Positions 4,341 through 57,290 of a DNA stretch of 64,000 nucleotides are shown piece after piece. Numbering within the stretch: the stretch's first letter is position 1; every line of letters begins with the position of its first letter. Origin of the DNA: Psococerastis gibbosa (lineage: Eukaryota > Arthropoda > Insecta > Psocodea > Psocidae); contig OZ020491.1 in assembly GCA_963971405.1 (NCBI GenBank), positions 22,314,855 to 22,378,854 on the forward strand, written 5' to 3'. The position numbers and the translations under genes are program-made. The notes under the pieces are model-generated. The model had not been told where the DNA came from, ran no database searches, and saw nothing but the letters and a program-made list of their open reading frames with translations.

Positions 4341-4450
4341 ACTCTTGCGATTATTTTTAATCTTAAGTTGGAATTAAAAATGTAATCAAGATAATTTTTG
4401 AATGGAAAGTGCTATTCAAAATTATTTTGCTTACAATTTTAGCCCCAAGA
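4341..4450. mobile_element. Decayed internal part of the TGATCATGGCG MITE
   Basis: GGAAAGTGCTATTCAAAATT and its inverted counterparts on both sides match the middle of the MITE at 6487-6655. The termini are no longer clear. Confidence 0.45.
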
Positions 4451-9183: not shown

Positions 9184-9890
9184 TTTTTTTTTTTTTTTTT
9201 TTTTTTCCTTCGTGGGGCCTACTCGTTTGAGTTCCTATAAGCGTCGACCTAGAAGGTCTTTTGCTTCCACGTTTGCCGTCTACGCCCATCTTATAACACC
9301 AGTCTTTTTGATAAATTCTAGTGTTTTTTTGATGGGATTAGATCGGATGGTTTCCTCTTCAGACCTAGGGTGGCCAAGAGTTTGGTATCGAGTTTGTCCC
9401 AGCGCTTCACATTCAAAGAGAATGTGTTCAGCTGTTTCTTCTTCAACTTCACACAGTCTGCATCTACTGTCGTTTTTCACGCCAACCCTATGCATGTGTT
9501 TGTTGAAGTGGCCGTGGCCCGTAAGCGTGCCAACCACCCTTCTAGCTTGCTCTCTACTTAAAGAGAGAAGCTGATCGGTGAGCTTTTTACTAGGACCCGG
9601 AATAACCTTCTTAGCAATTCTGCTTTCCGGGACTTTCTTCCATTCCTCTGCAGTTTTTCTCTGCACCCATTTTTGTACAGAAGTACGGGCCTGGCAATAA
9701 GCCATCCCGTACTTAGGTTCTGCACCAATGAATGGCGTTTCTGCACCTTTTCGAGCCAGCTCGTCGGCTCTTTCATTCCCATCAAAGTTCGAGTGCGCCG
9801 GGACCCAAATCAGCGAGACTGAGTTTTCCCGACACACCTTTATTAGGAGGTTGATGCAGTGCCACACCATTTTTGATGTGATCTATAATC
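9184..9890 (-). mobile_element. 5'-truncated I/Jockey-type LINE with 12-bp TSD
   Basis: The insertion is bounded by identical TAATCGTCATAG (9172-9183 and 9891-9902). On the minus strand it runs from a cut inside the RNase H coding region, through the ORF end and a short 3' UTR, to a poly(A) tail (T run at 9184-9206). The exact duplication and open frame suggest a fairly recent insertion. A shorter copy of the same family lies at 43289-43640. Confidence 0.9.
9280..9889 (-). CDS. LINE ORF2 C-terminus: RNase H domain and zinc-knuckle-like tail (partial)
   Basis: This is the C-terminal part of a LINE polyprotein, cut at its 5' side by retrotransposition. From the first Met (9870), residues 19-42 contain WVPAHSNFDGNERADELARK, the last catalytic block of retrotransposon RNase H, with the conserved His and Asp and the GNERAD signature. 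Near residues 135-153 CRLCEVEEETAEHILFEC gives a Cys/His cluster common at the end of I/Jockey/R1-group ORF2. The frame is open to the insertion edge, so the Met is not a true start. The RNase H would remove RNA from RNA/DNA hybrids during retrotransposition. No promoter remains, so expression is unlikely. Confidence 0.85.
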
Positions 9891-18745: not shown

Positions 18746-19860
18746 GTAATAATAATAATAATATTTTTTTTTCCCCAGCCGGTACCCCCAGCACTGGGAG
18801 CATTTAATAGAAAGAATACAATACAACATTAAAGAAAATAATCGTTTTTACCGGAATACTGCATGTAAGCCCCATAAGGGAGGCTTGTGGCAGGATTCGC
18901 CAAAAGACTACAATCAGTTATTATAGGGAGTACAAACTACATTATTACAAGTGTAAATAAAATAATAATAATACAGTTATATAGTTAGTTAATGTTAAAT
19001 AAGTTAAAGTTACCTTACATTATCCTGTATAAAATAAAATAAAAATAAATCAAAAGAATTAATCGCCATCATTTAAACAATTTATCAGCCAGTCCCCTAG
19101 ATTTCGCTTAACAGCATTGTAGCTATCCAACTCTAGAAGACTGACGGGAATCAAATTAAATACTCGGGGAATTGCCACCTTAAGCTCATGATAGCCATAC
19201 ATATTATTATGAGGCAGCTCAATATAATGTTTGTAGGTTGTTCCAGCTCTGCGACTGTACCTAGAAGGATTTATGGTCTTATATTTTGAGTTAAAATAAT
19301 TCAACAATAAAATGGCTTGAGTACGTAATAAAGTTATAGGCAATACACGATATTTCTTAAAGAAAAAATTGCTGTTTGTTTCACTGTGTAGATTATTGTC
19401 AATTGTTTTAAAGAGAGAGACCTGCAGGTTCCTAATTCTCTTGGTATAACATTCGGCTGCCGAGCCCCAAGCTACTATTCCGTACCTCAAAATTGACTCA
19501 ACTAGAGCTCGGTAAGCGATCAGCTGAATTTTTTTGTTGGTGCCTCTAAGACACGACACAGCAAAAACACAAGATCGCAATTTTCTATATATAAATTCAA
19601 CATGGTGAGACCACTTAAAGCGATCATCAATAACAATCCCTAAGTATGTCTGTACATTAACTTGGTTCAACGTCGTTACACATGCACAAGTTATGGAATC
19701 GAACGATTTCTTTTGATGTAGATGCAGACACCTCTGGTTATGAAATTTAATTTTTATATTCACATAATCAACTTTCGGTGGACGAATCACCATTGCATTG
19801 GTCTTCTTTTCATTTAATATTAGGCCATGATCATGCGCCCACTGAAGAAAACAATAAAAT
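18746..19860 (-). mobile_element. 5'-truncated CR1/Jockey-like LINE (array member A)
   Basis: On the minus strand this runs from RT thumb coding sequence, cut at the (AAT)n tract at 19866, through the ORF end at 19059 and a 285-base 3' UTR to a (AAT)n tail (18746-18763). Its 3' end CCCCAGCCGGTACCCCCAGC is repeated in member C (20381-20452), so A and C belong to one family. Confidence 0.85.
19059..19850 (-). CDS. LINE reverse transcriptase, C-terminal (thumb) fragment
   Basis: The frame is open from the insertion edge. It reads WAHDHGLILNEKKTNAMVI, the RT palm-end block with the conserved L.LN..KT, then YLGIVIDDRFKWSHHVEFI (the LG..ID..L.W..H motif), then ALVESILRYGIVAWGS (the S.L.YG...WG motif). 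These motifs mark CR1/Jockey-group LINE RT. The endonuclease and catalytic FADD core are missing, so it cannot be active. The first Met (19793) is internal. Confidence 0.85.
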   Translation of the reverse strand, partial: FLQWAHDHGLILNEKKTNAMVIRPPKVDYVNIKIKFHNQRCLHLHQKKSFDSITCACVTTLNQVNVQTYLGIVIDDRFKWSHHVEFIYRKLRSCVFAVSCLRGTNKKIQLIAYRALVESILRYGIVAWGSAAECYTKRIRNLQVSLFKTIDNNLHSETNSNFFFKKYRVLPITLLRTQAILLLNYFNSKYKTINPSRYSRRAGTTYKHYIELPHNNMYGYHELKVAIPRVFNLIPVSLLELDSYNAVKRNLGDWLINCLNDGD

Positions 19861-19861
19861 A

Positions 19862-19863
19862 AT

Positions 19864-19894
<31 letters not shown>

Positions 19895-20350
19895 TTTTTT
19901 CTTTCTTTCTTTTCCTTGTCCAGTATTGTCCATATATTACAAAAATACAATACATAATAGTACCATCCCGCATCCCCAAGCTAGCGCTTATTTGGGACAA
20001 AAGACTCATACAGTGCTGCTAAACAAGGCTTAATCATTTATTTTTGTTATTTATTTATAATGTTTATTTTATTTTTATTTTATTTTAATTTAACTTGTTA
20101 TTTTGATGTCAGTTTTTATTATTATTATTATTAACTCCCATTGACCAGCCATCTTTTTATACCCGCTTTTAACTCACCCATCTGTTTAAATTTTTTCATT
20201 TGTGGAGGAAGTTCATTAAATATCTTTGGTATAAGTTCTTTGTTTAATCTCTCTCCGTATTTGTTATATGTTATCTCAAACGTATGTTTTTGGGGGTTTC
20301 TTGTATTGTACTTCCCTTTATCATCTATTTGGTATTTTTTTTTAAAATAG
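19862..20350 (-). mobile_element. 5'-truncated LINE (array member B)
   Basis: The 3' (AAT)n tail lies at 19866-19893. Upstream on the minus strand are a 230-base 3' UTR and ORF codons ending at 20131 with KYNTRNPQKHTFEITYNKYG and IPKIFNELPPQMKK, matching the conserved C-terminal region after the RT thumb. Its 5' cut coincides with the (AAT)n tail of member C. Confidence 0.8.
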
Positions 20351-20452
20351 CTATAATAATAATAATAATAATAATAATAATTTTTTTTCCCCAGCCGGTA
20401 CCCCCAGCACTGGGAGCATTCAATAAAAAGAATACAATACAACACTAAAGAA
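20351..20452 (-). mobile_element. Severely truncated LINE 3' end (array member C)
   Basis: Only about 70 bases of 3' UTR (CCAGCCGGTACCCCCAGCAC onward) plus a T-run and (AAT)n tail at 20351-20381. It is closely similar to the 3' end of member A. It is cut at the (AAT)n tract 20453-20475. Confidence 0.8.
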
Positions 20453-20730
20453 AATAATAATAATAATAATAATAAATCGTCTTTATTGAACAGCGTATGC
20501 TGGCCAATGGCCCTTTCTTACACTAAACTGCAATAAATAGTAATAGGTTGAAATTGAATAAAATAATAGTGCCATCAACAGATAATTAAAATTTAAGTCA
20601 AATTAAAAATAAAAGCAACACAGTAATATACAGAATAATAAACATCAAAAAGAAATAATAGGCAGACTCAGTGCAAGTAGATCGTGATCATTAAACTTAT
20701 TAACGCTACCAATGATCGGGAATAGTAATC
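20453..20730 (-). mobile_element. LINE 3' UTR fragment (array member D)
   Basis: The tail (AAT)n at 20453-20475 is followed on the plus strand by TCGTCTTTATTGAACAGCG, a minus-strand 3' end with its own AATAAA-like signal. It differs in sequence from members A-C and carries no coding sequence. It ends where the SINE head begins. Confidence 0.65.
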
Positions 20731-20732
20731 GG

Positions 20733-20785
20733 CTTCGGTGACATAGTGGTAGCGTGCTTGTACTTGTTGAAGTCAATACATCATA
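20733..20785 (+). mobile_element. 5' part of SINE family 2, separated from its 3' part by a LINE
   Basis: CTTCGGTGACATAGTGGTAG then GTGCTTGTACTTG is the tRNA-like head of SINE family 2 on the plus strand. The remainder of the same SINE, in the same orientation, begins at about 25275, on the other side of the intact LINE. Confidence 0.75.
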
Positions 20786-21019
20786 GAATAGAATAGAATA
20801 GAATAGAAATAGAATAGAAAAAATTTTTATTACATCACACAGCCGTAGCCCTTATGTGTATAAATATTACATAATATAAAGCGAAAAAACAACAACAAAA
20901 ATTCCTACTGTTTATAGCCTATTGTAACTTCTTATTAAATAATTTAAATTTATATAAAAAAAAACCTACCTAACTACCAAAGAACAACGTAATATATAAA
21001 TATATCCTAACTACCATTC

Positions 21020-23878
21020 TTACAATATAATTTGGTTACAAGTTCCTCTGTATAATTCTAAGCTTTGCATAAACGGATCTAAGGTGTCATGATCATTTAG
21101 TAAATGAGTGAGCCTGTTTACTGGAGAATTTATGGCTACGTCAATCCTGTTTTGCGGCTGGTAAAATAAGTTAAAATTTCTTGTTGGAAACTGGGGTACA
21201 ATAAAATTTAGTTTGCTCAAGAAATTTTGATTGTCTTCTAGGCCATTTAATACTTTATAGATATATATGGCATCAGCAATTTTACGTCGTGCGCACAGAC
21301 TCTTCGCCTCATATTTTTCTAACAGAGTAGAATATGGTATATATGTGGGATCAATTTTATCAAACTTTCTCGTCAAATATTTTAAGAACTTTTTTTGCAC
21401 TTTTTCAATTTGTTTTATTTTGGTTTGGTGGTAAGGATTCCACACCACACTACCATATTCAAGCTTGCTTCGAACAAATGAGTTGAATAATACCATAATC
21501 GTTTTCCATTCCAGGAAATAAACTGAGCATCTTTTGATGAATCCTAACATACGATAGGCCTCATTAACTTTTTTACTTATGTGGTTTTCGAACGTTAGTT
21601 TAGAGTCAAAGATAACGCCCAGATCCTTTGTCTCTTCCTTTCTCTCTAAAGGTCTATCTAACAGTGTGTACTCATTCAATATTATATCATGTTTTAACGT
21701 ATATGTTATGATAAAGCATTTTTCTACATTTAGTTGAAGCTTATTTCTTTCACACCATTCTACCACTCTTTCTATGTCCCTTTGGAGTAATTTACAGTCA
21801 TTTCTGTCAGTAATTTTTTTACACAGTTTAAAATCATCTGCAAATAGATAACAACTGCAACTTCTTATTACCTCTGGTAGATCATTTATTATTAATAGGA
21901 AACATAACGGTCCTAGATTTGATCCTTGCGGTACCGATGAGTTAATTGAATAGGTTTCCGAGTAACTACCATTATATAATACTGTTTGTGTCCTACCACA
22001 TAAGTAAGAGTGAAAGAGTTCTATCAGTTCATCAGAAAATCCAAATTGTCTTAATTTCCTTAGTAGGACTTCGAAATCCACTAGATCGAAGGCTTTGCGA
22101 TAGTCTGTGTACACAACGTCAAATTGAAGCCTATTATTGAAGCTTAAAATAATTTCTTCTTCAAAGTTCACTAGATTTGTCACTGTTGACCGCTTACTCA
22201 TGAAACCGTACTGATGCTCAGAAATTAGTGATTTCACTTGTTGAATAATTTTTTTATACAGAATAGATTCTAATATTTTACTTGGAGTGCTCAAAAGTGA
22301 AATTGGCCTATATTGATTAATCTGTTTCGCCATCGGCGTTTTAGGTATAGGGCATACAATGGAGTTTTTCCATACGGTAGGAAACTTGTTATTTTTAAGT
22401 GACAAGTTGCAAATATACCACATTGGATCAATGAGAAAGGTTGAATATAATTTATAAAAGAATTGTGGTATTCCATCTCTTCCTTTCGATTTTTTAGGCA
22501 TTAATTTTTTAAATGCTTCAATGATATCACTCCTTTGAAGACAACCAATTTTTACCATATTAACTCCTACAGGTATTGGTTCTGAAATAATGGCCTGTAA
22601 ATCAAAGCTGGGTGGATGCTGCGCGTACACTGATTTAAAGTAGCTGGCAAATGCTTGTGTTTTTTCTTTATCGTGTAGTAAAATGTTTCCATTATTTAAC
22701 AACACTTGATCACCATTTGAATTTGACTTTTTACTTTTAATAAATTTCCAAAAATCCACTGGATTTTCCACTATATTTTTTTCTTGTTGACCATTATAAG
22801 TCCGTAAAACTTGCTTAATTTCTATTTTTAACTCGCTGCGGACTTTTGAATAAGATGCATAGTCTGAACCTAAATTAGTTTTTTTAAATTTTTTTCTTAG
22901 ACGCTCTTTCAACTTAATTTTATTTATAATTTCTTTGGTAAACCAGATAGGCCACTTGCTCTTTTTAAAAGAAATTTTAGGTACAAAGGCGTTTAATAAT
23001 TTATATATAATTTCATAAAATATTGTAACTGCAGCATCCACATCACTTTGTTGGTACAATTCTGACCAATCAACCTTGCTGATTGATTGAAGTAAGCCCT
23101 GACTATCAGCTTTCTGAAAATTATACTGAGCTTCTTTTGGAGTTTCAGGCCATTTTGCCTTAAAGGTACAAATAGTTATTTCTAAGCTTGGGTGATTTCT
23201 ATCATTTTTAACTAAAGGAAACGTCGCTTTTCCTACCGTACACACCTGCAAATTTGTCAATACATAGTCAAGATAGTATCCATTAACATTTGTCACATGG
23301 TTAAATTGGCTCAGATTGAAATATGATATATTCCTTAACACATAATTTTCCAAAGCCGGTACAGTGCCAATCATATTATTCATCCAGTATTTACTAAGAT
23401 TTTTTAAGTTAAAATCACCCATAAGTAAAATTTTACCATTAATCTCCTTCTCATATTCATGTAATTTGTCAAAAAAACTTTTAAAATGACTTCGTGGGGC
23501 GTTTACAATGAAATAAACTACTCCAATGCATAAGCAGGAGTTGGGTCTAATATATACTTTAATCCAAATGGACTCGGTGACGTCATCTTCCAAAATAAAC
23601 AATCTCTCAGTTTTATATTCCTTCTTTATGGCTATTGCCACACCCCCTCCATCACCCTTATTCGCCTTTTTCAGATCTCTATCTTTGCGATATACTGTGT
23701 AGTTTCCCCCGAAAATTTCAGAATTTAAGTACCCATCATTTAACCATGTTTCAGTAAAAGTTACACAGTCGTAGTCCGTAATGGACAAGTTCATATATAA
23801 TTCTGAAGTTTTAGTTTTGGCCCCATTTAGATTTTGATAATATATATTAAAATTATTTATATCTTTATCCATAGCCAA
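21020..23878 (-). CDS. LINE ORF2: AP endonuclease-reverse transcriptase (952 aa)
   Basis: The enzyme nicks target DNA and copies the LINE RNA in place (target-primed reverse transcription). The endonuclease covers about residues 10-235: YYQNLNG (13-19), TETWL (42-46, catalytic Glu), GDFN (154-157), DYVL (204-207) and a His at 229 in DRNHPSLE. A linker precedes the RT, about 460-740: GRDGIPQ (466-472), YRPISLL (523-529), YTDYRKAFD (590-598, catalytic Asp), VPQGSNLGPLCF (649-660) and FADD (679-682, catalytic Asp pair). Thumb motifs follow: LGVIFDSKLTFENHI (753-767) and FVRSKLEYGSVVW (801-813). No RNase H domain is seen, as in most CR1 elements. The Met at 23878 is consistent with the spacing to ORF1. 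All key residues are present. Confidence 0.96.
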   Translation of the reverse strand: MAMDKDINNFNIYYQNLNGAKTKTSELYMNLSITDYDCVTFTETWLNDGYLNSEIFGGNYTVYRKDRDLKKANKGDGGGVAIAIKKEYKTERLFILEDDVTESIWIKVYIRPNSCLCIGVVYFIVNAPRSHFKSFFDKLHEYEKEINGKILLMGDFNLKNLSKYWMNNMIGTVPALENYVLRNISYFNLSQFNHVTNVNGYYLDYVLTNLQVCTVGKATFPLVKNDRNHPSLEITICTFKAKWPETPKEAQYNFQKADSQGLLQSISKVDWSELYQQSDVDAAVTIFYEIIYKLLNAFVPKISFKKSKWPIWFTKEIINKIKLKERLRKKFKKTNLGSDYASYSKVRSELKIEIKQVLRTYNGQQEKNIVENPVDFWKFIKSKKSNSNGDQVLLNNGNILLHDKEKTQAFASYFKSVYAQHPPSFDLQAIISEPIPVGVNMVKIGCLQRSDIIEAFKKLMPKKSKGRDGIPQFFYKLYSTFLIDPMWYICNLSLKNNKFPTVWKNSIVCPIPKTPMAKQINQYRPISLLSTPSKILESILYKKIIQQVKSLISEHQYGFMSKRSTVTNLVNFEEEIILSFNNRLQFDVVYTDYRKAFDLVDFEVLLRKLRQFGFSDELIELFHSYLCGRTQTVLYNGSYSETYSINSSVPQGSNLGPLCFLLIINDLPEVIRSCSCYLFADDFKLCKKITDRNDCKLLQRDIERVVEWCERNKLQLNVEKCFIITYTLKHDIILNEYTLLDRPLERKEETKDLGVIFDSKLTFENHISKKVNEAYRMLGFIKRCSVYFLEWKTIMVLFNSFVRSKLEYGSVVWNPYHQTKIKQIEKVQKKFLKYLTRKFDKIDPTYIPYSTLLEKYEAKSLCARRKIADAIYIYKVLNGLEDNQNFLSKLNFIVPQFPTRNFNLFYQPQNRIDVAINSPVNRLTHLLNDHDTLDPFMQSLELYRGTCNQIIL

Positions 23879-24011
23879 ATTTTAACATTACATAGTCATA
23901 AACAAAATGAAAATAAATAAAAATTCTTCCTAATAGGTAATACATTACCATTGAATGGTGTACTATACTATTGTATTGGTAGTTTCCTAAATTCAAACAA
24001 TAGAAGAGTAG

Positions 24012-25007
24012 TCAGTCCATTGCCTTGATGCCAGTTGGGATGTCAGCAGGAGTTTTAATTAGTAGCACCGGCGAGCCCTCGCTTTTCCTCATATGCACGT
24101 TTCCATTAGAATCAACCCAGCAGTATGCGAAGTTATGTTTTTTCTTTGCCTCTCTTGCTCTCCAATACAGTTCTTTTCTCCATGGACTCAGGTTTACATT
24201 AATATATATTTTTTCATCATCACTCCCTCCTATTATATTATTACTCACTAGACCCGTAACCTTCTTTTTTAGCCATACATCTCTTACACGTTTAGATATA
24301 AATTGGACAAGAATTGCCTTCCTTTTATTTACCAGCTTAGATGTTCGATATAGGCTGTCCACCTCCCCCTCTTCATAGTTTATCATTAGTTCCCTGGCTA
24401 GGGTTTTCATGATATCATGCAAATTTTCACCATGTCTCTCTTGTATTCCTGAAATCTCAATATTTTTGTTTTTGCTTATTTGTTCCTGGTCACACAATGT
24501 TAGTCTCATCTTCATTAAATCCGTTCTAACAGCAAAATTCTCTTTCTCCAACTCACTGATTTTATTTTGATATGTAGTCAATCTCTTGTCATGAGCTTTA
24601 ACTTTATCATCAAGAGCGTTTAATTTAATTAATATTTCATCAGACTTATCTGATTGATACTGTATTGCCACCACCAATTTGTTTAGTAGAGAACATACGT
24701 TCTTAATTTGATTTCCCATTTCCTCCAGTGATTCTGTTTTTATTTCCTCTAAAATTGGCAAATCAATTTCTGACTCCGCTCCTGAATTCTTAGTTCTATT
24801 TTTCATGATATCAGTACACGTTGTACATACCCATTTCTTCTTTTCCGCATCTGATTTGGCTCTGTATCCTCTGGCTGATAAACTGCTACACTCTAAATGG
24901 TATTTTCCTCCACATAGACCATGGCATACTACTTCTATAGAGCCTATGTGAATTTGTTCATTGCAACGCTTGCAAATCGACATGATTTGATTGGAAAACC
25001 TTTTCAA
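24012..25007 (-). CDS. LINE ORF1: PHD-finger / coiled-coil / FP25K-like protein (331 aa)
   Basis: ORF1 proteins of CR1-group LINEs bind the element RNA and form the ribonucleoprotein that carries ORF2. Residues 12-64 give a full C4HC3 PHD finger: C12, C15, C28, C32, H37, C40, C61, C64. A hydrophilic stretch and a long coiled coil follow (about 85-178, for example KISELEKENFAVRTDLMKMR). Residues 180-320 match the domain shared with the baculovirus FP25K protein in many LINE ORF1s: IEISGIQE, a YRTSK block, ILVQFISKRVRDVWL and IYINVNLSPWRKELYWRARE. Length and order are normal for the group. A second Met at residue 9 lies just before the finger and could also start translation. ORF2 begins 133 bases downstream, so it needs reinitiation or a separate start. 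Confidence 0.92.
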   Translation of the reverse strand: MKRFSNQIMSICKRCNEQIHIGSIEVVCHGLCGGKYHLECSSLSARGYRAKSDAEKKKWVCTTCTDIMKNRTKNSGAESEIDLPILEEIKTESLEEMGNQIKNVCSLLNKLVVAIQYQSDKSDEILIKLNALDDKVKAHDKRLTTYQNKISELEKENFAVRTDLMKMRLTLCDQEQISKNKNIEISGIQERHGENLHDIMKTLARELMINYEEGEVDSLYRTSKLVNKRKAILVQFISKRVRDVWLKKKVTGLVSNNIIGGSDDEKIYINVNLSPWRKELYWRAREAKKKHNFAYCWVDSNGNVHMRKSEGSPVLLIKTPADIPTGIKAMD

Positions 25008-25274
25008 TATTCAGTTGGCAAATCGTGATTTAACAAGGAAAAACAACTGTGAGATCCAGAGTGTATCCAGTCTAAGTTAACTTCTTGCACTAGCTTGTAC
25101 ACTAATATAATTTTTTGTATATTTTGTCACTTTTATGGTTTCTTTAGTTCACGTTAGTTTCTTCCTATCTCTGAATAGTTATTTTCACTACTAAATTGCA
25201 AACTGTTCAAGTATTTGAGTTTTAAAAGTAATGTTAATTATTGTTGTTATTCCGTTTCAACGCATGCGCACTGA

Positions 25275-35423: not shown

Positions 35424-36175
35424 CATCCGATGATATGCAAACCGAGTCATTTTTTATATTATTTTTTACTAACGAGTATAGCCGGAAATATGTGAATACT
35501 TTGACTGTACTTAAAATGATTTTTCTTTCAGTTGAGGGGGGGGGGGGATATTTTCTTTGACGGGTTTCTCTTAAGATTTTCTTTTTTTAATGTAATTCAA
35601 TTTTGTCATGTCAACTTTTTTTTAGGTTTTCCAAATTATTTTGATATGATATCAGCATTGGTAATGCATGTATGCTATTTCGATTTTAATTTCTATAATT
35701 AATAATTAGTAAATTAATTTCTATAATCACATCCAATGACATGCAAACTTTTCGGCTGAACTTTAAATGATTTTTCTTTTCTTTCAGTTGAGTTAAGATT
35801 TTATTTATGTAATGTCAACTTTTTTTTAGGTTTTCCAAATTATTTTGATATGATATCAGCATTGGTAAGGCATTTATGCTATTTCGATTTTAATTTCTAT
35901 AATTAATAACTAATTAATTAATTTCTATAATCACATCCAATGGCATGCAAACTTTTCGGCTGTACTTTAAATGATTTTTCTTTCAGTTGAGGGGGGGATA
36001 TTTTTTTGTCGGGTTTTTCTTAAGATTTTCTTTTTTTAATGTCATTCAATTTTGTCATGTCAACTATTTTTTTGGTTTCCAAATTAGCATCTGCTGTTGA
36101 TGTGATACCAGCATTAGTATAAGGTATGTAGGCCTATGCTATTTCGATTTCAATTTCTATAATTGCCTTCCCGCC
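35424..36175. repeat. Three-unit tandem repeat of about 200-300 bases
   Basis: Three successive copies start near 35424, 35735 and 35938. Each contains ATGCAAAC, ATGATTTTTCTTTCAGTTGA, TTTTTAGGTTTTCCAAATTA, GATATGATATCAGCATTGGT and CTATTTCGATTT. Unit 2 lacks the G-run and TCGGGTTT segment. A partial fourth copy lies at 37108-37165. Each unit keeps a TTTCTTTCAG acceptor-like motif. No coding frame. Confidence 0.75.
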
Positions 36176-57164: not shown

Positions 57165-57290
57165 CCCACTCTATAGTAATAATAATAATGCGTGTATTTA
57201 TCAAAAGGCATTACCTACAAATTATACTGAAACCGGTGCCACAAAGCGAAAAATGCGCGTTGGAACCACCACACAATTTACTGAAGTAGA
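57165..57290. repeat. Interspersed repeat T, copy 2
   Basis: AATAATAATAATGCGTGTAT, ACCGGTGCCACAAAGC and TGCGCGTTGGAA match 26170-26260. Confidence 0.55.

Follow-up and report, generated by a model that had tools for sequence, protein, structure and literature searches.

The window analysed here is a 64,000-nt stretch of the Psococerastis gibbosa genome (assembly GCA_963971405.1, contig OZ020491.1, positions 22,314,855 to 22,378,854 of the forward strand), and the source assembly in which its elements were searched comprises 409 Mb in 68 contigs. Between positions 18747 and 20725, the minus strand carries the 3' ends of four LINEs in the 5' to 3' order D, C, B, A (Table 1). The initial annotation had described four such ends in a row, and they are present; it had also held that A and C share a 3' end from which B and D differ. 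A 96-nt direct repeat with 96% identity forms the common 3' end of A and C and joins them in one family, while the ends of B and D are distinct from A/C and from each other. B terminates in a GAAA-rich tract and D in GGGCCATTGGCC...CAATAAAGACGATT(TATTATT). The 5' cuts of A, B, and C each adjoin the next (ATT)n run. Of the earlier proposal that each cut coincides with the (AAT)n tail of the next element, the contact with the repeat stands and the tail does not, the repeat being no constant part of A/C or B. A single segmental duplication, which the annotation had raised as an alternative origin of the row, was rejected: A is found at 39 other places with 95-99% identity among 40 scored candidates, its copies elsewhere have other neighbours, and pieces of B lie beside only some of them.

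Table 1. Features of the four-element array and of the adjoining LINE X, in window coordinates
Feature	Position	Strand	Remark
(ATT)n run adjoining the 3' end of A	18747..18763	-	then CCAGCTGG...
Element A, 5'-truncated LINE 3' part with A-rich tail	18764..19860	-	C-terminal ORF2, hairpin-like 3' end
Open frame of A	19059..19862		267 aa, C-terminal ORF2
(ATT)n run between the cut 5' end of A and the GAAA-rich tail of B	19861..19894	-	TRF 19853..19894
Element B, 3' portion of a LINE from a second family	~19895..20352	-	ORF2-like C-terminus by eye
Open frame containing the ORF2-like C-terminus of B	20131..20517		by eye
(ATT)n run between the cut 5' end of B and the A-rich tail of C	20353..20380	-	
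Element C, A-family 3' end, very short	20381..~20452	-	cut at ATTATTTTCTT-like place, reference position 4345
(ATT)n run immediately 3' of D	20453..20475	-	possibly D's own tail
Element D, LINE-like 3' end, GTGTAAGAAAGGGCC..CAATAAAGACGA then (ATT)n	20476..~20725	-	5' limit approximate
LINE X	20783..25010	-	tail (TTCTA)n
Open frame of X	21020..23881		953 aa, APE and RT
Open frame of X	24012..25010		332 aa, PHD-like and FP domains

A 35-nt motif from the 3' end of A, allowing up to two mismatches, has 198 forward and 172 reverse matches in the genome (370 in total), and a control pattern beside it has none genome-wide. In the first 30 exact ends in genome order, CCGGCTGG leads into an A-rich tract, interrupted by G, T, or C in a few of the ends, and the tract is followed by TTATTATT in some of these ends and by other DNA in the rest. 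Because all 30 run into the A-rich tract and only some continue into TTATTATT, we take the tail of A to be A-rich, and any ATT beside A ends is most plausibly part of the flanking DNA. An (AAT)n tail for A was rejected on the same ends, in which the A-rich tract lies between the hairpin and the repeat; the suggestion that these are LINEs with ATT-rich 3' ends does not hold for A, which ends in the A-rich tract instead.

The flanks of A were tabulated in a first sample of 50 copies chosen regardless of flanks, consisting of the 30 first exact copies and the next 20 on contig C2, with one intervening C2 copy that was already included left out. Two of them (L046 and L047) have the same flanks, so that 49 are independent. 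Each copy was aligned to a full-length one to place its 5' breakpoint, and a 5' junction was scored by an (ATT)3 run no more than 20 nt upstream of the cut or 8 nt into it. At the 5' junction, ATT is present in 34 of 48 resolved copies and AAT in none (0/48), two copies having run off the fetched stretch; the corresponding counts at the 3' junction are 22/50 and 1/50. ATT is thus found on at least one side in 41/50 copies: 18 have it 5' only, 15 on both sides, 7 on the 3' side only, and 1 has ATT 5' and AAT 3'. Among the remaining copies, 7 have it on neither side and 2 lack it on the 3' side with the 5' side unresolved. Twelve further copies were taken from contig C3 (12 of the 17 listed there, 3 lying at loci already sampled and 2 being left out), and ATT was scored at 9/11 of their 5' junctions, at 7/12 of their 3' junctions, and on at least one side in 9/12. 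For the pooled sample of 62 copies, all from the three contigs C1-C3, the counts are 43/59 resolved 5' junctions, 29/62 3' junctions, and 50/62 copies with ATT on at least one side. The 5' junction alone scored in 20/62 copies (18 + 2), one more having AAT on its 3' side, and 12/62 have no (ATT)3 wherever a junction could be read, the 5' side being out of reach in 3 of them. A few of these negatives are misses of the scoring: the long ATT run of L034 was overlooked, as a T interrupts its A-tract. One full-length copy of A (L006+L062, 4.4 kb from first base to hairpin) begins directly after (ATT)7.

An (ATT)3 run occurs in only 374 of 123,288 28-bp windows from the rest of the 64,000-nt stretch (0.30%) and in 385 of 64,320 from the far flanks of A loci (0.60%), which makes the array tidier than chance, as the annotation had supposed. 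The excess at A junctions is ∼100-fold or more over this background, with a binomial tail of ∼1e-64 for 34/48 at 0.6%. The orientation of A relative to the repeat is also nearly fixed. On the forward strand genome-wide, (ATT)3 lies within 30 nt downstream of 62 of 135 A ends and (AAT)3 of 2; these counts were confined to the + strand, the reverse counts having repeated the same copy. The large excess that had been predicted for the flanks of other copies is therefore seen, almost entirely in one orientation, and the contrary outcome, copies lying mostly outside microsatellites, is not: a majority of the sampled insertions (50/62) sit at one tandem repeat motif whose background frequency is 0.3-0.6%.

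The behaviour of the other ends differs from family to family. For B, (ATT)3 lies within 30 nt downstream of 52/230 forward ends (23%), a weaker association than that of A. Its 5' junction carries ATT in 10/20 loci in a masked alignment; with the window copy included, 11 junctions have ATT, 1 has AAT, and 9 have neither (n = 21). In two loci (L088 and L096), a P end with (ATT)n immediately precedes B, which brings the 5' count to 12/20; in three of the 9 junctions with neither (L086, L093, and L098), the B 5' start rests on few other copies and is perhaps not the true end. E behaves like A on the 3' side, the only side scored, with ATT in 53 of 102 forward ends. The idea that these LINEs land on existing AAT microsatellites accordingly fits A/C and B, with the difference that the repeat, supposed to be a tail brought by the element, is here the target.

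D is of another kind. Even with two mismatches allowed, the only genomic match to its 29-nt motif is D itself, and a multicopy family of exactly this sequence was rejected; the reading of D as a LINE end is based on a few similar ends (L071, L075, L080, and L091). Under a narrow definition, (ATT)n follows 4/4 D-type ends (window D included), 5/5 J-type ends, and 5/5 P-type ends, in small, non-random samples drawn only from the A and B loci retrieved and from the window. Among 12 looser D-like ends, 6 have ATT, 5 have ATTT-type repeats, and 1 has a T-rich stretch; away from A, ATT follows 2/8. This variation could reflect an intrinsic tail that differs between subfamilies. Other ends with ATT, mostly at A loci, are F (2/4), M (5/7), N (3/4), and E (6/7). 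Ends of the D, J, and P types may bring (ATT)n as a tail and may supply the repeat, and only they, in these small samples, look like the site builders of the initial annotation, the broad D-like class reaching just 6/12. The claim that each insertion builds the landing site for the next gives way for A, B, and C, which insert into the repeat and leave it on one or both sides. The 3' ends of A, B, and E form predicted hairpins with z values of -1.7, -6.1, and -3.3, the value for the D end being -1.1; the strong hairpin of B is that of its genome copies, whose sequence was used for the fold, the window B having an altered left arm. A P-type 3' end (AAATACACGC) also lies at 57190-57199 (minus) with a short (ATT)n directly after it, as at four other loci. 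Elsewhere, at G000:C12:5272892-5275685, four E-type ends with (ATT)n are spaced at 918-928 bp, so that a unit containing E appears to be repeated in tandem.

The 5' junctions of A were examined for the way in which the element meets the repeat, and its cuts favour points where the element's own sequence is ATT-like. In the strict set of 25 copies, namely the 26 whose ATT run reaches the cut less the duplicate L047, the cuts overlap the ATT run by a mean of 2.96 nt, versus 1.07 nt for random cuts, a value that 0 of 20,000 resamplings equalled; 6/25 show no overlap. The same cut place, reference position 4345, recurs in L066, L075, L081, L082, L132, and the window C. Target-site duplications do not rise above chance: in the 18 copies whose 5' flank is free of ATT over its last 25 nt, their lengths equal those of shuffled pairs (mean 2.2 versus 2.25, longest 8). 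Within 120 bp upstream, a LINE-like 3' end is found at 24/46 resolved distinct A copies. Of the 33 with an ATT junction, 18 stand behind another LINE-like 3' end and 15 have none recognised within that distance, with the qualification that the motifs for upstream ends were chosen partly from the same flanks in which they were counted. In the DNA retrieved, (ATT)n runs away from A stand behind LINE ends in 4/17 cases by motif and in more by eye, 4/17 being an undercount. No excess of A over these general runs was demonstrated, and because (ATT)n away from A also often follows such ends, the target that we claim is the repeat and not LINE tails. Downstream of A copies L009, L011, L023, and L031, TTTCAACCTCAAGGCATTTTTTAGTT recurs right after (TTA)n, and it lies near L027; GCCACTTGGCTAA is likewise placed in L005 and L010. 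Both sequences may represent the 5' ends of additional elements inserted there.

Four other explanations were weighed against separate insertion into a pre-existing repeat. The (ATT)n could be the elements' own RNA tail, with the 5' contacts arising since such tails are common landing places. This would account for the repeat after 62/135 A ends and for the consistent (ATT)n of the narrow D-, J-, and P-type ends (4/4, 5/5, and 5/5), and for D-type ends it may well be correct. For A, however, 73 of the 135 ends have no (ATT)3 within 30 nt, the A-rich tract separates the hairpin from the repeat in the 30 ends examined, the 5' excess (34/48) cannot be A's tail, and 15/33 ATT-junction copies have no recognised LINE end upstream. 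We regard this explanation as improbable. A single event is less probable again. Template jumping, known from R2 work, yields units in head-to-tail order that are 5'-truncated, and a reverse transcriptase that ran off one RNA and jumped end to end to the next, laying down A to D together, would produce both the order of the row and the truncation of every unit. The units, however, belong to different families with an (ATT)n run between each pair, and in the same 15 of 33 copies A meets (ATT)n with no recognised partner within 120 bp upstream.

A LINE from the same genome served as a comparator. LINE X, which lies beside the array, has domains of the same kind as A, the two RT regions being 25% identical. 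Its 35-nt 3' motif has 86 forward and 90 reverse matches with up to two mismatches (176 in total). In the 75 nt downstream of 20 X loci, ATT was found at 0/20 and AAT at 1/20, and a whole-genome search for X joined to ATT gave 0 forward matches and 1 reverse match, the copy number having come from a longer motif than this pattern. X lacks ATT flanks, and the excess is therefore not general to the LINEs of this genome. A weak bias toward AT-rich DNA, or the passive persistence of copies in repeats where they do no harm, without true targeting, would agree with the report that most APE LINEs have at most a weak target preference (in the excerpted text of PMC13295347), and we give it very little credence against a ∼100-fold or greater excess, a near-strict orientation, and the absence of such an excess from X. 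Microsatellites can recombine, and recombination between (ATT)n runs could have joined separate elements, local duplication being seen in the shared flanks of L046/L047, yet the variable-length A-rich ends and 5' microhomology are what insertion predicts and the flanks of sampled copies otherwise differ, save for recurrent repeats, which makes this origin just as implausible. On the plus strand at 20722-20780, beside the tail of X, a tRNA A-box-like stretch (GTGACATAGTGGTAGCG) was noticed by eye and is perhaps a truncated tRNA-derived SINE; ARAGORN found no tRNA there.

Our preferred reading, to which we assign a probability of about 0.83 together with the machinery, priming, and microhomology joining proposed below, is that the array consists of separate target-primed insertions stacked at one (ATT)n microsatellite. 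The repeat would have been present before A inserted. For the A/C family, and less so for B and E, the machinery, which in A would be an APE-like endonuclease and an RT, is proposed to nick the strand that bears AAT, either within an (AAT/ATT)n run or at its edge; reverse transcription, we infer, then starts on the A-rich (or GAAA-rich) tail of the RNA, primed by the end so released. An RNA tail of this kind primed by the nicked AAT strand would therefore leave ATT in the sense of the element. The cDNA, usually 5'-truncated, would then share a few bases of microhomology with what remains of the ATT strand and be joined upstream by them, a step that would leave no regular target-site duplication. 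With the repeat left on one or both sides, the landing site would survive, and the next element could land in the same run in the same orientation; head-to-tail rows would form because the orientation is fixed and the repeat stays on at least one side. In the window, a D-type end, perhaps with its own (ATT)n tail, may have come first in the order of insertion and supplied the founding site. We read the distribution of ATT over the two junctions as a nick within the run or on its border. In the copies with ATT at the 5' junction only, the nick would have to lie at the edge; alternatively, the run acts in these copies only in 5' joining, after a nick nearby.

The coding content of A bears on the lineage to which this behaviour would belong. 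ORF1 matches a PHD-like model at 19.2 bits, below the Pfam cut-off of 24, and Baculo_FP_2nd at 62.3 bits; no CCHC model was found in it by Pfam at E 0.1. ORF2 matches RVT_1 at 115 bits and Exo_endo_phos at 20.4 bits, below the Pfam cut-off of 24.5, and only endonuclease-family models matched its endonuclease stretch in Pfam. In the full-length copy (L006+L062), ORF2 is broken between the APE-like stretch and the RT. Compared with solved structures up to E 1, the endonuclease stretch matched only four chains, each of which carries an R1 label (best E 0.26), and the RT matched L1 and R2 at ∼1e-12, which does not decide the clade. The R1 clade (SART, TRAS, and Waldo) has an ORF1 of the Gag type with CCHC. 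Among the Jockey superfamily, PHD-bearing ORF1s are those of the CR1 and L2 lineages, and the Jockey-lineage ORF1s all have RRM and CCHC, in a paper whose scope is the Jockey superfamily, with R1 and Tx1 outside (available part of PMC4120745). We regard A, with some reserve, as a likely LINE of the CR1/L2 lineage, a place in the R1 clade being a less likely alternative. An assignment to R4/Dong was rejected on domain order: the APE-like stretch precedes the RT, and Pfam lists no endonuclease after the RT.

Several known systems resemble A in part. Waldo and other LINE families, the subject of Kojima and Fujiwara (2004), reportedly target microsatellites, as A does. The Dong element targets the (TAA)n of an rDNA spacer (PMC2887409, in the part available), the same repeat motif as A, and differs from it in that R4 is a clade with a restriction-like endonuclease (PMC4640811, likewise), whereas in A an APE-like domain precedes the RT and Pfam found no other endonuclease. 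SART and TRAS, of the R1 clade, are like A in the fixed-orientation insertion of a LINE into a short tandem repeat, although theirs is a pentamer telomere repeat entered at a precise site, and A inserts at imprecise positions, sometimes at the edge, and with escapes; unlike them, A has a PHD-like ORF1; its endonuclease stretch matches the solved R1 structure at just E 0.26, and no other structure better. In Lepidoptera, RTE elements are described as generating microsatellites, without site specificity and with target-site duplications of 6-12 bp (available text of PMC2887409). They couple a LINE 3' end to a simple repeat and provide a model for the D/J/P builder ends; there the repeat arrives with the element, whereas for A it is the target and no duplication above chance is seen. 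The 5' joining of A fits the annealing route of ZfL2, a zebrafish L2 whose 5'-truncated inserts are joined through microhomology or annealing with short target-site duplications and for which the available part of the source describes no microsatellite targeting (PMC4245944). The HERO and Togen families are given as microsatellite-targeted LINEs, and the majority of target-specific families as early-branched, Tx1, or R1 (both in the accessible text of PMC4640811), and the site specificity of APE LINEs is said in the excerpted PMC13295347 to be limited to Tx1 and R1. No report of (ATT)n-targeted CR1/L2 elements appeared among the literature titles and abstract openings.

LINE targeting of microsatellites is thus known, and (ATT)n targeting by a likely CR1/L2 family would be new within the literature covered. 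If A belongs to CR1/L2, a young, high-copy family with a strong but incomplete (ATT)n preference would represent a separate origin of targeting caught part-way, and with X as a non-targeting comparator in the same genome, the change from a random to a site-specific LINE becomes testable. If A fell within R1, it would simply add an ordinary member to a known group. Landing in a fixed orientation at a site that survives each insertion would account for the rows of LINE ends at microsatellites, and such stacking is relevant to microsatellite markers and repeat annotation. A broader picture, which we offer as a speculation with the odds somewhat against it, is a LINE ecology of two guilds: D/J/P ends, with (ATT)n as their own tail, seed the sites, and A/C, B, E, and perhaps F and M specialise there, inserting in one orientation without spoiling the site, and stacks build up at each founder; these specialists would be the first site-specific CR1/L2 LINEs.

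Two further features of the window were noted. At 9280-9882 (minus), a 200-aa open frame resembles, by eye, the RNase H or C-terminal part of another LINE ORF2. At 35600-35983, a 204-bp unit is tandemly duplicated (1.9 copies, 95% matches).
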